A DNA stretch of 23,707 bases. Source: a virus. Where the stretch lies: IMG/VR virus record IMGVR_UViG_3300032676_000590, positions 1 to 23,707 of that record. One strand, 5' to 3'. Each line of letters starts with the position of its first letter. Positions within the stretch are counted from its first letter, which is position 1. The notes under the pieces are model-generated. The model was not told where the DNA came from, did no database searches, and saw only the letters and a program-made list of their open reading frames with translations. This document shows, in pieces, positions 10,061-19,159 of this stretch. A program made the position numbers and the translations under genes.

Positions 10061-10090
10061 ACTAATACGCTATTTTGGACCAATCCGCCC
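10061..10090 (-). promoter_or_regulatory. Candidate phage sigma promoter for the portal operon
   Basis: On the minus strand GGGCGGATT starts at 10090 and GCGTATTAGT occupies 10070-10061, with 15 bp between GGGCG and the second box. It lies between the terminase stop and the portal ATG, which is 50 bp further on. The upstream box overlaps an inverted repeat (CCAATCC 10080-10086 / GGATTGG 10103-10109, with inner GCCC/GGGC) that spans the terminase stop codon. Confidence 0.68.
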
Positions 10091-11535
10091 TACTGGGCGT
10101 AAGGATTGGCAAATCGCTTACGTACATCGTCGTCTGCGTAGTCATAATCGCGCGGTGGTAGGTAGTCTAGCTGCAGCCAACCATCATCCCTCAGAATACG
10201 AAGCGCTTGGGATAGTGAGTCTACGTAGTCGTCATGCCCCTGCATTTCAGGGAACGAGCAGACTTGGCGAATAAACCGTTTGGTCCAGTCAGCAAACTCA
10301 CCCTTTTGTTTTGGATCTTCGGGGATAAATATCTTTCCCTTAGCTACCAAAGGGGCTACAATGTTCAGTCGCTGGACTTTGTCGGCTCGCCCAGGGTTGT
10401 ACCCTTGCACTGGCACTCCGGCGCCTCTGAGCTCTTGTATGAGGCTAATACCGGCTGATTTATCCTCCATGAGGATGAGGTCTGCTTTTTTGCCTTTGGC
10501 AAAGGTGTTGTCTGCGCCGTAAACTACTTCCTTAAAGTCGTTGATTACTTTACGGCGAAGTTCTGGGTAAGAGAGGTGGTTGTCCCAAGCGTCCAACAAT
10601 ATCGCACTGGTACCGCCGTCTTGTTGCTGGAAGATACCCCACACCGTACAAGCTGTTGGGTCGTTGTGTGTTTTTTCTGAGGTAGCTGGATCGTAGCTGG
10701 CCAGAACGTATTCCAGCTCTGGTGTGGGCTTATCGGCTGGCCACATCTTGAACTGCTTGCGTTTGATAATACCAGCGGACTCTGGGTCTAGGATCTCTCC
10801 ATAAATCTCCTGTCTACCAATATCTGTTCCGTCATAAGTCTCAAGCTGTTTGAAGAATGTTTCAGACAGGTTCTCTCGGTTGTCAAACGACGAGGCGTTG
10901 ACCATGTACACGTCGCCGCCGATTTTACCTTCGGCAAGGTCTACAATCAATTCCCTAGGCTTAGGGGTTGTAGTAATGATTTGCTGGACTCGAGGTATTC
11001 TTGGGTCTTTAAGACGCAGAGTAAACTGCACGCCGTCGTAGGCATCGTCGAGGTAGTCAAAGGCACACAGCTCATCGAACCAAGCTCCATGGTATTGTTT
11101 ACCACGGTATCGTTCAGGCTCTGAGGCTGGAATGCCTTGAATGATCGAGCCGTTGACGAGTGTGATTTCAAAGAGGGACTTGTTGTAGTCTCGGATAAGG
11201 GACTTTGGTATGATGTTAAGCAGACCGGAATCTCCCTCAAAACAAGTTGCTCGTATGTCGTTAGAGGTAGGGGCTGTGACAAGCCAGCGTGTGCCTGGGT
11301 AACGCCAAGCACGTATGCCAAGCCAGTGGCTAGCAGTGTGCGTCTTACCAGATCCACGACCGGCAAGCATAAGGAAGGTATCGTACTCACCATCTGGTGG
11401 CTCCTTTTGATGCGCTAGTGCAGACTTGGCCCAGGTCATTCTCCAGACCGCTGCGTCTAGTTCCGGTTTAGGCCAGTGCTTACGCGCCTTGATAAATTCG
11501 GATATTTCTTTTTGTTCTTCTTTACTTAAAGACAT
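10090..11535 (-). CDS. terL: Terminase large subunit
   Basis: 481 aa. The N-terminal ATPase has Walker A LAGRGSGKTHT (AGRGSGKT at 58-65) and Walker B GAWFDE (150-155), with the coupling segment IITTTPKP (186-193). The C-terminal RNase H-like nuclease shows SYDPATSE (D282), LILMEDKSAG (E357/D358) and GHDDYVDSLSQAL (D435/D436, D439), the acidic residues expected to bind metals. It packages DNA by docking on the portal encoded just downstream. No small-terminase gene is recognisable nearby. Its ATG lies inside the end of the Hint gene (10-bp overlap in another frame), so translation is probably coupled. Confidence 0.95.
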   Translation of the reverse strand: MSLSKEEQKEISEFIKARKHWPKPELDAAVWRMTWAKSALAHQKEPPDGEYDTFLMLAGRGSGKTHTASHWLGIRAWRYPGTRWLVTAPTSNDIRATCFEGDSGLLNIIPKSLIRDYNKSLFEITLVNGSIIQGIPASEPERYRGKQYHGAWFDELCAFDYLDDAYDGVQFTLRLKDPRIPRVQQIITTTPKPRELIVDLAEGKIGGDVYMVNASSFDNRENLSETFFKQLETYDGTDIGRQEIYGEILDPESAGIIKRKQFKMWPADKPTPELEYVLASYDPATSEKTHNDPTACTVWGIFQQQDGGTSAILLDAWDNHLSYPELRRKVINDFKEVVYGADNTFAKGKKADLILMEDKSAGISLIQELRGAGVPVQGYNPGRADKVQRLNIVAPLVAKGKIFIPEDPKQKGEFADWTKRFIRQVCSFPEMQGHDDYVDSLSQALRILRDDGWLQLDYLPPRDYDYADDDVRKRFANPYAQ

Positions 11536-12518
11536 GCAATAAATCCTTCTTCGACCAACATGCTGTTATCCTCTCCATCTATTTCGATGTGAACACAGGC
11601 TTGCGGTGTTATCTCTTCAACTTTAGTAATCAGTCTCCAGTTTTGCCGCACCTTAGCAGGCTTTGGCGTTTGCTGTGGTAAAAGTTTTAGCTTGGTTTTA
11701 ATAAAAACAGTGTATCCGTTTATTTTGTCCGGACCTTCGAGCACTGTCTTACATCCCAACGATTCGGCAAGCCCTTGAACTCGCTTGACGGTTGGTAAAT
11801 GCTTTGATGTAAACCGAAACGTATCTAACTTTTGGTTATATTGATTTGGTTTTGCGTGCATAATCCCACTAAGCAGCTCGATTCGTTGTTCAGAACTCGC
11901 CAGTAGGTAGTTGTTTGGTATTTTGTACGGTATGTTTGGTGCCAAGTGTGACATAACCGTAGGCTTTGTGCTGTAAACTCTGTACCGCTTGGCTGGATCA
12001 CGCCAGTAAGTTTGCAAGTAGCCATAATCTTTAAGCCGTTCCATAACTTCGTCCATGTATTGCGCTGGAATTTTCATGGTTCCGTCTTTTCTACGGCAGA
12101 AAAACCATAGGCCAAACACAAACGGCGGGACTGGCAGGTCCATAATGGGGAATTCTAGCATGCCGGCTGTCGGTACGCTGTACACTAAACGGTTTCGTTT
12201 GTCTAAAAGCTCCAGGTTAATCAGTTCGGACAGGGGTTTTAGTACCAAGGGCCTCTTAAACTTCTTAACGCCTTTGTATTCAAAGATTCTTTTGCGGTAC
12301 TTTGGTGTTTCTACTGGTAGCTTTAGGTTCCCGTCCCCGCAAACTGACGTGCCGTCTTTAAACCATACACGATAGCATGGCCGTTTGTCTAGGTGTTGGA
12401 CGAGTTTTATCCGGACCTTGCGGCCAAGTCTGTCAAATACAATGTCACCCTGCTTTAAGTCTTGCGCTATTTTCCAATAGTCAAGGGTTAACACCTTTTG
12501 TGTTGCTAGTATCGCCAT
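11526..12518 (-). CDS. Stand-alone Hint (intein-like) domain protein
   Basis: 330 aa. Residues ~10-70 resemble intein blocks A and B: LTLDYWKIAQDLKQGDIVFD, then CYRVWFKDGTSVCGDGNLKL, where the usual His of block B is replaced. The end, ACVHIEIDGEDNSMLVEEGF followed by IACL, matches blocks F and G, but the terminal His-Asn needed for splicing is absent and there is no N-terminal Cys/Ser nucleophile. The middle (~90-290) is where inteins carry a LAGLIDADG homing domain. SEQRIELLSGIMHAKPNQYN (~209-228) resembles the second such helix, so a decayed or repurposed endonuclease is likely. It overlaps the preceding gene by 38 bp and terL by 10 bp. I recognise this type from environmental phage genomes next to terL, but know no function. 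Confidence 0.72.
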   Translation of the reverse strand: MAILATQKVLTLDYWKIAQDLKQGDIVFDRLGRKVRIKLVQHLDKRPCYRVWFKDGTSVCGDGNLKLPVETPKYRKRIFEYKGVKKFKRPLVLKPLSELINLELLDKRNRLVYSVPTAGMLEFPIMDLPVPPFVFGLWFFCRRKDGTMKIPAQYMDEVMERLKDYGYLQTYWRDPAKRYRVYSTKPTVMSHLAPNIPYKIPNNYLLASSEQRIELLSGIMHAKPNQYNQKLDTFRFTSKHLPTVKRVQGLAESLGCKTVLEGPDKINGYTVFIKTKLKLLPQQTPKPAKVRQNWRLITKVEEITPQACVHIEIDGEDNSMLVEEGFIACL

Positions 12519-12789
12519 AAAAGTTTTCCAATACCCATTTGTCTAGGTATTTTCCCAACAGCAGCCTAATCTTGTTAATGACGCCGTTGGGTAGTTTTTG
12601 GATTACCAAGGCGCCGTCTGTTAGCTTTAGACGGAAAGCTAAGTACTTAGCTGTCTCTTTGTCTAAAATTCCAATCGGTACGTCAACGGAGTCAAAATTA
12701 TACAGGTCGCACACTAGTACACGCAAACCAACGAGTTTTTGGTTTTTGTCTTCTAGTGCGCCTTGAATTTGGTAAACGTACTTGTTCAT
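12481..12789 (-). CDS. Unknown protein opening the terminase operon, 102 aa
   Basis: It begins MNKYVYQIQGALEDKNQKLV and has a beta-rich first half and a helical second half (ETAKYLAFRLKL, NKIRLLLGKYLDKWVLENF). It is the first leftward gene after the non-coding region and occupies the place where a small terminase often lies, but I see no helix-turn-helix that would support that. GCGTATTAGT ends 6 nt before the ATG, and no clear Shine-Dalgarno is visible. It overlaps the Hint gene by 38 bp. Confidence 0.65.
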   Translation of the reverse strand: MNKYVYQIQGALEDKNQKLVGLRVLVCDLYNFDSVDVPIGILDKETAKYLAFRLKLTDGALVIQKLPNGVINKIRLLLGKYLDKWVLENFYGDTSNTKGVNP

Positions 12790-12874: not shown

Positions 12875-13079
12875 ACTATCCACAGTATCCATAGTATCCA
12901 GGGTCTAAACGACATTTACCCTATATCTTTATTTTATTTTTAAAAAAAAAAAAAAAAAAATCAAAATTACTGTGGATACTGTGGATCGTAACTAAAATGT
13001 TCTTTTAAATCAACGAGTTACCGTGCCACCATAGGGTTTACCCCAGTGGATTATAATCCAGGATGCAGTGCAGCATTTT
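12875..13079. other. Candidate replication origin module, copy A
   Basis: Three 9-bp direct repeats TATCCACAG, TATCCATAG and TATCCAGGG lie at 12877-12903. After an A/T-rich core with 19 consecutive A (12942-12960), the same unit appears inverted twice: TACTGTGGATACTGTGGATC at 12968-12987. CTATCCACA (12876-12884) and TGTGGATAC (12971-12979) each differ at one base from the DnaA box TTATCCACA/TGTGGATAA. A 27-bp block follows at 13007-13033 and a 24-bp block at 13056-13079; both recur in copy B (25/27 and 24/24 identical). DnaA-like sites around an easily melted core are typical of origins. Direct evidence of replication start is lacking. Confidence 0.6.
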
Positions 13080-17442: not shown

Positions 17443-17655
17443 GTGCAATTCTTAGTCGGAGCGGCAATCTTAATCTCATTGGCGCAAATGCTTTATGTAC
17501 TATGCATGAGTGCGCCAGTGCTGTATTCTAAAATAGGCTGGCGCGGTTTTATTGGAATTGGCTTGCTTATATTACTATGCATTATATTTCCAGTCCTGTG
17601 GCGATTTGTGCTAGTCATTGGGTTTCTTTTAATGTTTATATGGATAAATTCATAA
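17443..17655 (+). CDS. Small membrane protein, 70 aa
   Basis: A GTG at 17443 with AGGGGG (17431-17436) upstream is the best start; a TTG at 17401 is the alternative. Residues 1-22 form one membrane segment (VQFLVGAAILISLAQMLYVL), and residues ~33-68 are almost wholly hydrophobic and could form two more. The DNA is AT-richer than its neighbours. Its size and topology would allow a holin or an exclusion protein, but nothing beyond hydrophobicity supports either. The stop overlaps the sigma-factor ATG (TAATG), so the two are probably co-translated. Confidence 0.6.
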   Translation: MQFLVGAAILISLAQMLYVLCMSAPVLYSKIGWRGFIGIGLLILLCIIFPVLWRFVLVIGFLLMFIWINS

Positions 17656-18221
17656 TGGCAAACGACTTTTTAACTGACTACCTCAAGTCACTGTATGGCA
17701 TACCAGTGCTCGAAAGTGCTGAGGAGTACGAGCTCGCAACCAAGATACAGAAGGGAGACGAGCTGGCACTCGAAAAGCTGGTGAGGCATAACCTGCGCTT
17801 TGTGGTGTACACCGTGCGCAAGCTCACCGCGTGGAACCACTCACGCACGCCTCAGGAGGACTTGATTGGCATGGGCAACGAGGCACTACTCAAGGCCGCG
17901 CGCCAGTGGGTGCCAAAGAATGGCGCCAAGTTTGCGACGTACGCCAAGCGGTTTATACTGCGTGGCATCGAGCGTGGTCAGGACGACGAGGAAAACCTAG
18001 TACGCATTCCCATCAAGGTGCGTGAGGAAATACGCAAGATGACATACACAGAGCGTGCACTGACTCAGACGCTAGGACGCAACCCCACGGTGTACGAGCT
18101 GGCAAGCGTACTGGGAAAGCCAACCCGCCGCATTAACCAGTTAAAGTTTTACATGATGCAAGAACCATCTTCACTAGACTCACTCAACATCGACAAAATG
18201 GAGGACGAAAACGATGATTAA
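17655..18221 (+). CDS. Sigma-70-family factor lacking region 4
   Basis: 188 aa. Region 1.2 is at residues ~4-35. Region 2 (~44-110) reads NLRFVVYTVRKLTAW, DLIGMGNEALLKAARQW and then GAKFATYAKRFILRGIER, matching NLRLVVSIAKKYT...KFSTYATWWIRQAITR of RpoD. Region 3 (~117-170) starts VRIPIKVREEIRKMTY and holds GRNPTVYELASVLGKP. The protein ends SSLDSLNIDKMEDENDD, the acidic region 3.2, so the -35-binding region 4 is missing. Positions equivalent to RpoD W433, W434, Q437 and T440, involved in -10 recognition, are R99, F100, R103 and E106. It should redirect host core polymerase to a non-standard -10, and the five GCGTATTAGT sites are the obvious candidates (inference). Confidence 0.88.
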   Translation: MANDFLTDYLKSLYGIPVLESAEEYELATKIQKGDELALEKLVRHNLRFVVYTVRKLTAWNHSRTPQEDLIGMGNEALLKAARQWVPKNGAKFATYAKRFILRGIERGQDDEENLVRIPIKVREEIRKMTYTERALTQTLGRNPTVYELASVLGKPTRRINQLKFYMMQEPSSLDSLNIDKMEDENDD

Positions 18222-18965: not shown

Positions 18966-19159
18966 GATCCATAGTATCCACAGTAGTTTTCACTTTTACT
19001 CTAGATTTATTTATTTTATTTTTTTAAAAAAAAGAAAAAAGTAGAATATACTGTGGATACTGTGGATCGAGTACAAAATAGCTATACAAATCAATGGGTT
19101 ACCGTGCCACCATACGATTTTGTATGGTGGCAAATATCCAGGATGCAGTGCAGCATTTT
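18966..19159. other. Candidate replication origin module, copy B
   Basis: GATCCATAGTATCCACAGTA (18966-18985) and TACTGTGGATACTGTGGATC (19049-19068) are inverted repeats matching at 19 of 20 positions around a 63-bp core of almost pure A/T. The right arm is identical to that of copy A at 12968-12987. DnaA-box-like nonamers lie at 18974-18982, 19052-19060 and 19061-19069. The 27-bp block follows at 19088-19114 and the 24-bp block at 19136-19159, in the same order as in copy A. It lies just before the primase-helicase gene, a usual place for a phage origin. Confidence 0.65.
19104..19132. repeat. Hairpin, second copy
   Basis: A 29-nt stretch identical to 18901-18929 forms an 11-bp stem with loop GATTTT. 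It lies inside origin module B, between the 27-bp and 24-bp shared blocks. Origin copy A keeps only the left arm followed by an unrelated GGGTTTACCC hairpin. Confidence 0.85.

Follow-up and report, generated by a model that had tools for sequence, protein, structure and literature searches.

An intein-derived stand-alone protein encoded next to the large terminase gene in a clade of uncultured phages

Inteins are selfish elements. Those of class 3 normally lack the N-terminal nucleophile, and in LAGLIDADG homing endonucleases every LAGLIDADG helix bears a catalytic Asp. Among phages, class 3 inteins that include a LAGLIDADG domain occur in a DnaB-like helicase (Brevibacterium phage Rousseau) and in the large terminase subunit (TerL; mycobacteriophages Constella and LittleE); for mycobacteriophages the TerL inteins have been described, as has the WCT motif of class 3 (PMC5050341). 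The repurposed inteins reviewed in PMC8987985 still splice and act as switches, and in yeasts the intein-like genes HO and WHO stand alone and retain the nuclease (PMC7282813). WhiA (DUF199) has a degenerate LAGLIDADG domain without catalytic residues that was recruited by its host (PMC3781837). HO and WhiA are thus domesticated, yet neither is a dead full-length intein. Homing-type proteins can also join the packaging module (PMC10448857): as cited there and in PMC9611059, Kala et al. (2014) dealt with HNH proteins of HK97 type, which are encoded beside the terminase and are thought to be part of that module. We found no report in the open-access literature of the protein family described here, although an earlier one is possible.

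The window, by which we mean the whole stretch of 23,707 nucleotides analyzed (IMG/VR virus record IMGVR_UViG_3300032676_000590), contains such an intein-like gene, PI, as the second gene of the late operon, beside a divergent control region. The features of this locus are:

11526-12518, minus strand: PI, stand-alone and apparently dead intein (Hint plus LAGLIDADG), 330 aa plus stop, ATG start
12312-12518, minus strand: PI Hint N-terminal half, residues 1-69, placed by the phage-intein alignment; Met plus intein residue 1 (Ala), block B without Trp
12144-12311, minus strand: PI basic linker, residues 70-125, mean net charge +7.7 (n=96 homologues)
11667-12143, minus strand: PI degenerate LAGLIDADG domain, residues 126-284 (approximate), both catalytic Asp lost
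11529-11666, minus strand: PI Hint C-terminal half, residues 285-330, F:4 Cys replaced by His, stop in place of the terminal Asn
11526-11535, minus strand: overlap of the PI stop region with the TerL start, 10 bp
11544-11551, minus strand: Shine-Dalgarno-like sequence 5' of the TerL start, within the PI coding sequence, as read from the sequence
10090-11535, minus strand: TerL, 481 aa, Walker A GRGSGKT uninterrupted
12481-12789, minus strand: P3, conserved 102-aa ORF, first in the operon, overlapping the PI start by 38 nt

The initial annotation had recognized intein-type blocks at both ends of this 330-aa gene, and database comparisons bear this out. Based on tblastn searches of phage records, residues 1-326 of PI align to phage inteins (best E 2e-13, about 25% identity) whose host proteins are TerL, DnaB-like helicase, Cas4/RecB-like nucleases and other phage proteins. 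By profile, the inteins compared gave their best match with one of class 3 residing in a DnaB-like helicase, and with that of phage Rousseau the PI family aligned over 315 columns (hhalign, E 1.7e-26). In an AlphaFold2 model of modest confidence (pLDDT 69.8, pTM 0.46), which predicts Hint plus LAGLIDADG, the best fold match was PI-SceI over the full length (Z 15.8, 313 aligned, rmsd 6.5 A); in the same predicted model the Hint part matches mini-inteins, with Z 11.7 for the class 3 DnaB intein, and residues about 125-285 match both I-DmoI (Z 10.2 over 149 residues) and WhiA (Z 10.2). A sequence search of the PDB agrees with the other evidence in placing the class 3 DnaB intein second (E 0.1); the top match, to an IGF-II entry (E 0.004), we take to be spurious. 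The limits of the ORF are those of an intein, since PI has its own start and stop without exteins, begins with Met plus intein residue 1 (M-AILATQKVLT, against ALIISELVLT or ALALDTPIAT in inteins) and ends at the position of the intein terminal Asn (GFIACL-stop, against GFVVTHN). The central 160 aa or so are a LAGLIDADG domain, and PI is thus a complete intein, more than a Hint domain on its own; the earlier description as a stand-alone Hint protein was right about the separate gene and had overlooked this middle part. The identity of PI as an intein-derived protein is well supported. An origin from a TerL intein was considered and set aside, as an intein tree with long branches and poor resolution does not group PI with the TerL inteins. 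The top viral structural match, A0A6J7WN65 from an uncultured Caudovirales phage, carries only the name 'DOD-type homing endonuclease domain-containing protein', so relatives have already been met by automatic annotation.

PI shares with the class 3 phage inteins the full-length two-domain architecture and its order, as well as a first residue, Ala or other, that is no nucleophile, but differs from them in being a separate gene without exteins and in lacking the splicing Trp, Cys and His-Asn and both nuclease Asp. These losses are general among 96 distinct PI homologues, including the missing N-terminal nucleophile and C-terminal His-Asn that had been seen in the window. Position A:1 is Ala and F:4 is His or Tyr, not Cys, in all 96; the Trp two residues after the block-B His and the terminal His-Asn are found in none. 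The block-B His itself, counted with a family motif because the alignment leaves its column uncertain by one residue, is kept in just 37 of the 96. The class 3 WCT triplet (B:12 Trp, F:4 Cys and G:5 Thr) with a terminal Asn is therefore not present. As the nearest sequence relatives found for PI are class 3 inteins, the missing N-terminal nucleophile alone is no proof of splicing loss; beyond it, however, PI also lacks the class 3 Trp and Cys. An invariant Cys308 was examined as a possible retained class 3 nucleophile and rejected, because in the ungapped alignment it sits two residues before F:4, which is His or Tyr. Together with Cys48 and Cys329, which are likewise conserved, Cys308 might make up a new kind of site. 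The LAGLIDADG fold is there without a catalytic Asp in either helix: both are absent from all 96 homologues, and the second is replaced by Lys or Arg in 94.

Yet the gene is conserved. Median dN/dS was 0.067 for the whole of PI, 0.067 for Hint and 0.058 for LAGLIDADG, computed pairwise (Nei-Gojobori, own script) over the 38 pairs with 0.05<dS<1, most others being saturated and left out; one further homologue, L166, carries an in-frame stop. Judged from its sequence, PI is dead in both splicing and cutting and is kept by purifying selection. It thus shows what characterizes domesticated LAGLIDADG proteins: it stands alone, has lost the selfish activity, is under purifying selection and is fixed in its lineage. 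HO and WHO resemble it as stand-alone intein-like genes without exteins or block G; HO is domesticated, as we propose for PI, but has an active nuclease and a zinc finger, and PI neither (PMC7282813). WhiA resembles it in the degenerate, recruited LAGLIDADG domain, but has a DNA-binding HTH and no Hint, whereas PI has Hint and no recognized HTH (PMC3781837).

Concerning the neighbourhood, TerL (Pfam Terminase_6N, E 6e-17; Terminase_6C, E 1e-8) lies in the -1 frame relative to PI, and its ATG is indeed 10 bp inside the end of PI, as first noted. The suggestion of an intein-related element turned into a separate gene linked to terL passed both checks that had been proposed as able to refute it, as the predicted fold includes Hint and relatives retain the linkage. 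With PI as query, TerL immediately followed PI in 101 of 102 loci, the exception being L102, where it begins about 390 nt further downstream; with TerL as query, PI was upstream in all 63 tabulated loci, among them L168 with an intervening HNH-like ORF. The overlap of the PI stop with the TerL start was 10, 7 or 4 nt in 91 of the 92 distinct loci scored. A -1 frameshift joining the two proteins had been envisaged, but only five slippery heptamers occur near the 96 PI ends, none of them general, and a Shine-Dalgarno sequence precedes the TerL start in 96/96. For these two reasons TerL has its own start, probably translationally coupled to PI, and a fusion of the two is not supported. Two HNH-like small ORFs were observed at the borders of the gene, one between PI and TerL (L168:1039-1426) and one, in a single relative, at the P3/PI border (L003:5529-6038).

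The PI clade forms one side of a branch of the TerL tree with support 98, so the PI/TerS state changed once; outgroup branches are long, and the polarity, by which PI was gained once, rests on Caulobacter phage RLK having a small terminase subunit (TerS). The bacterial genomes searched yielded no more than three contigs, all of phage and all from a single beta-proteobacterial MAG, and we therefore assign no host.

What does such a protein do? PI is basic, with a pI between 9.1 and 10.0 across the 96 homologues, and is the second most basic of the 42 predicted proteins of at least 150 aa on contig G001. In comparison with four inteins the charge is added in the linker (+7.7 versus +2 to +3) and in the LAGLIDADG domain (+10.7 versus +2 to +8), with none added in the Hint part. 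Basic charge and coupling to TerL together favour a DNA-binding packaging partner over a regulator or a TerS. We therefore put at about even chances the reading that PI is a domesticated, catalytically dead class 3-like intein, basic and binding DNA, that works alongside the terminase in packaging. On this view a class 3-like intein of a phage, in which LAGLIDADG is inserted into Hint, would have broken free as a separate ORF heading the late operon, would have lost both splicing and DNA cutting before the radiation of the present phage clade, and would have been retained afterwards by purifying selection. Made in step with TerL through translational coupling, PI could hold phage DNA by the LAGLIDADG saddle and the basic linker while the Hint body probably touches TerL or P3, and so might help the terminase to locate, or keep hold of, the site where packaging starts or ends. 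DNA binding, the contact with TerL or P3 and the packaging role are what we infer from these features. The role would be akin to that of the HK97-type terminase-linked HNH proteins minus cutting; in the sources citing them, those are likewise homing-type proteins encoded beside the terminase, but of a different fold and with a working nuclease. It is more tentative, and to us somewhat short of even, that the whole dead intein has become an obligatory extra component of the packaging motor, a DNA-recognition subunit made in step with TerL. Strong conservation, basic charge and coupling to a packaging-motor gene suggest that, in a large group of uncultured phages, a selfish element now does work for the phage. 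If true, a dead, freed full-length intein would be a core phage gene, and it would be the fold itself, not its chemistry, that lends itself to recruitment; the role can be tested directly, given a family that is large and clean and is strictly coupled to terL.

Linkage and coupling to terL might equally be those of a regulator encoded where the late operon begins, which weighs against the packaging role. PI would then control late genes or TerL translation, as a WhiA-like factor or as an RNA binder on the P3-PI-terL mRNA. Its place as second gene near the divergent control region, its basic charge and the precedent of WhiA, which is also a structural match (Z 10.2), speak for this. The degenerate LAGLIDADG domain of WhiA is not its main DNA binder (PMC3781837), and no HTH domain was recognized in PI, both of which count against the packaging-partner reading. 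Against a regulator, the coupling is specifically to terL, and the phage encodes a sigma factor of its own. Repeats of TATCCACAG, some in one orientation and some in the other, lie on either side of an A-rich run ahead of the late operon (12877-12986) and recur upstream of the primase gene (18967-19067); from their sequence they may be DnaA-box-like or operator sites. As targets of PI they were rejected because they are present only in close relatives, which also argues against the regulator. On balance we regard regulation as unlikely, though the most serious competitor of a packaging partner. The sigma-70 family factor lies in the early gene block (17577-18221, plus strand) and has Pfam regions 1.2, 2 and 3.

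That PI is a functional TerS which displaced an Sf6-type TerS from its slot seems to us improbable. The idea was favoured early because the two exclude each other in a common position. The closest TerLs outside the PI clade, those of MW202545 (52%) and RLK (42%), have an Sf6-type TerS (PF20901) upstream; walking out from MW202545 gave 78 loci with TerS before TerL and without PI, against 176 loci with PI and without Sf6-type TerS and none with both, and seven long PI contigs gave no PF20901 match while both controls were positive. Thus PI does share with the Sf6-type TerS the slot directly before TerL. That TerS is, however, an unrelated HTH protein: TerS is defined by an N-terminal HTH and a helical oligomerization core, although one TerS without a canonical HTH has been noted (PMC9611059), and PI has neither, its predicted fold being Hint plus LAGLIDADG. 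Moreover, the PI clade has a TerS-like gene elsewhere, P0006, an HTH protein of about 115-135 aa seen in the early region in the ORF calls of two long PI-clade contigs and matching the PHROG 'terminase small subunit' (E 2e-7):

L278:9180-9524 and L275:12603-13007: TerS-like HTH protein (P0006 family), far from terL in PI-clade phages

P0006 was found in 9 of the 15 PI-clade contigs searched, the seven longest included (all are fragments, and absence from the shorter ones weighs little), and in none of 10 sister-clade records; its presence in the same phages is what weakened the replacement hypothesis. In addition, P3 entered the slot together with PI, being upstream of it in 151/151 loci and absent from sister-clade loci. 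P3 itself was rejected as an HTH-type TerS: it is predicted as beta-beta-beta-alpha-alpha, its best VIA match reached only Z 5.0, and it gave no Foldseek match at E<=0.001, no relative in phage records and no recognized fold or family. Among the sister-clade loci L186-L265, at least two TerS groups (about 250-295 versus about 40-65 bits with one profile) precede closely related TerLs, so the slot has seemingly been exchanged often. One sister-clade phage carries two TerL-like ORFs in tandem (L197:540-2719).

We hold it very doubtful that PI is a decaying selfish homing gene hitch-hiking beside terL with no service to the phage. Terminase-adjacent regions are homing endonuclease hot spots (PMC10448857), and HNH-like ORFs do occur at these borders in L003 and L168, but the dN/dS of PI stays low with both Asp gone from every homologue, and no member of the clade among the tabulated TerL loci is without PI. 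That PI still cleaves, splices onto TerL or joins it by -1 frameshift, for which adjacency and the -1 frame relation speak, is scarcely credible, since blocks A, F and G have lost the splicing residues examined in every homologue, both nuclease residues are gone, and TerL keeps its Shine-Dalgarno sequence throughout with no general slippery site. Rfam and tRNA scans of the window were empty. At positions 1-498 an 18-bp unit is repeated in tandem about 16 times.
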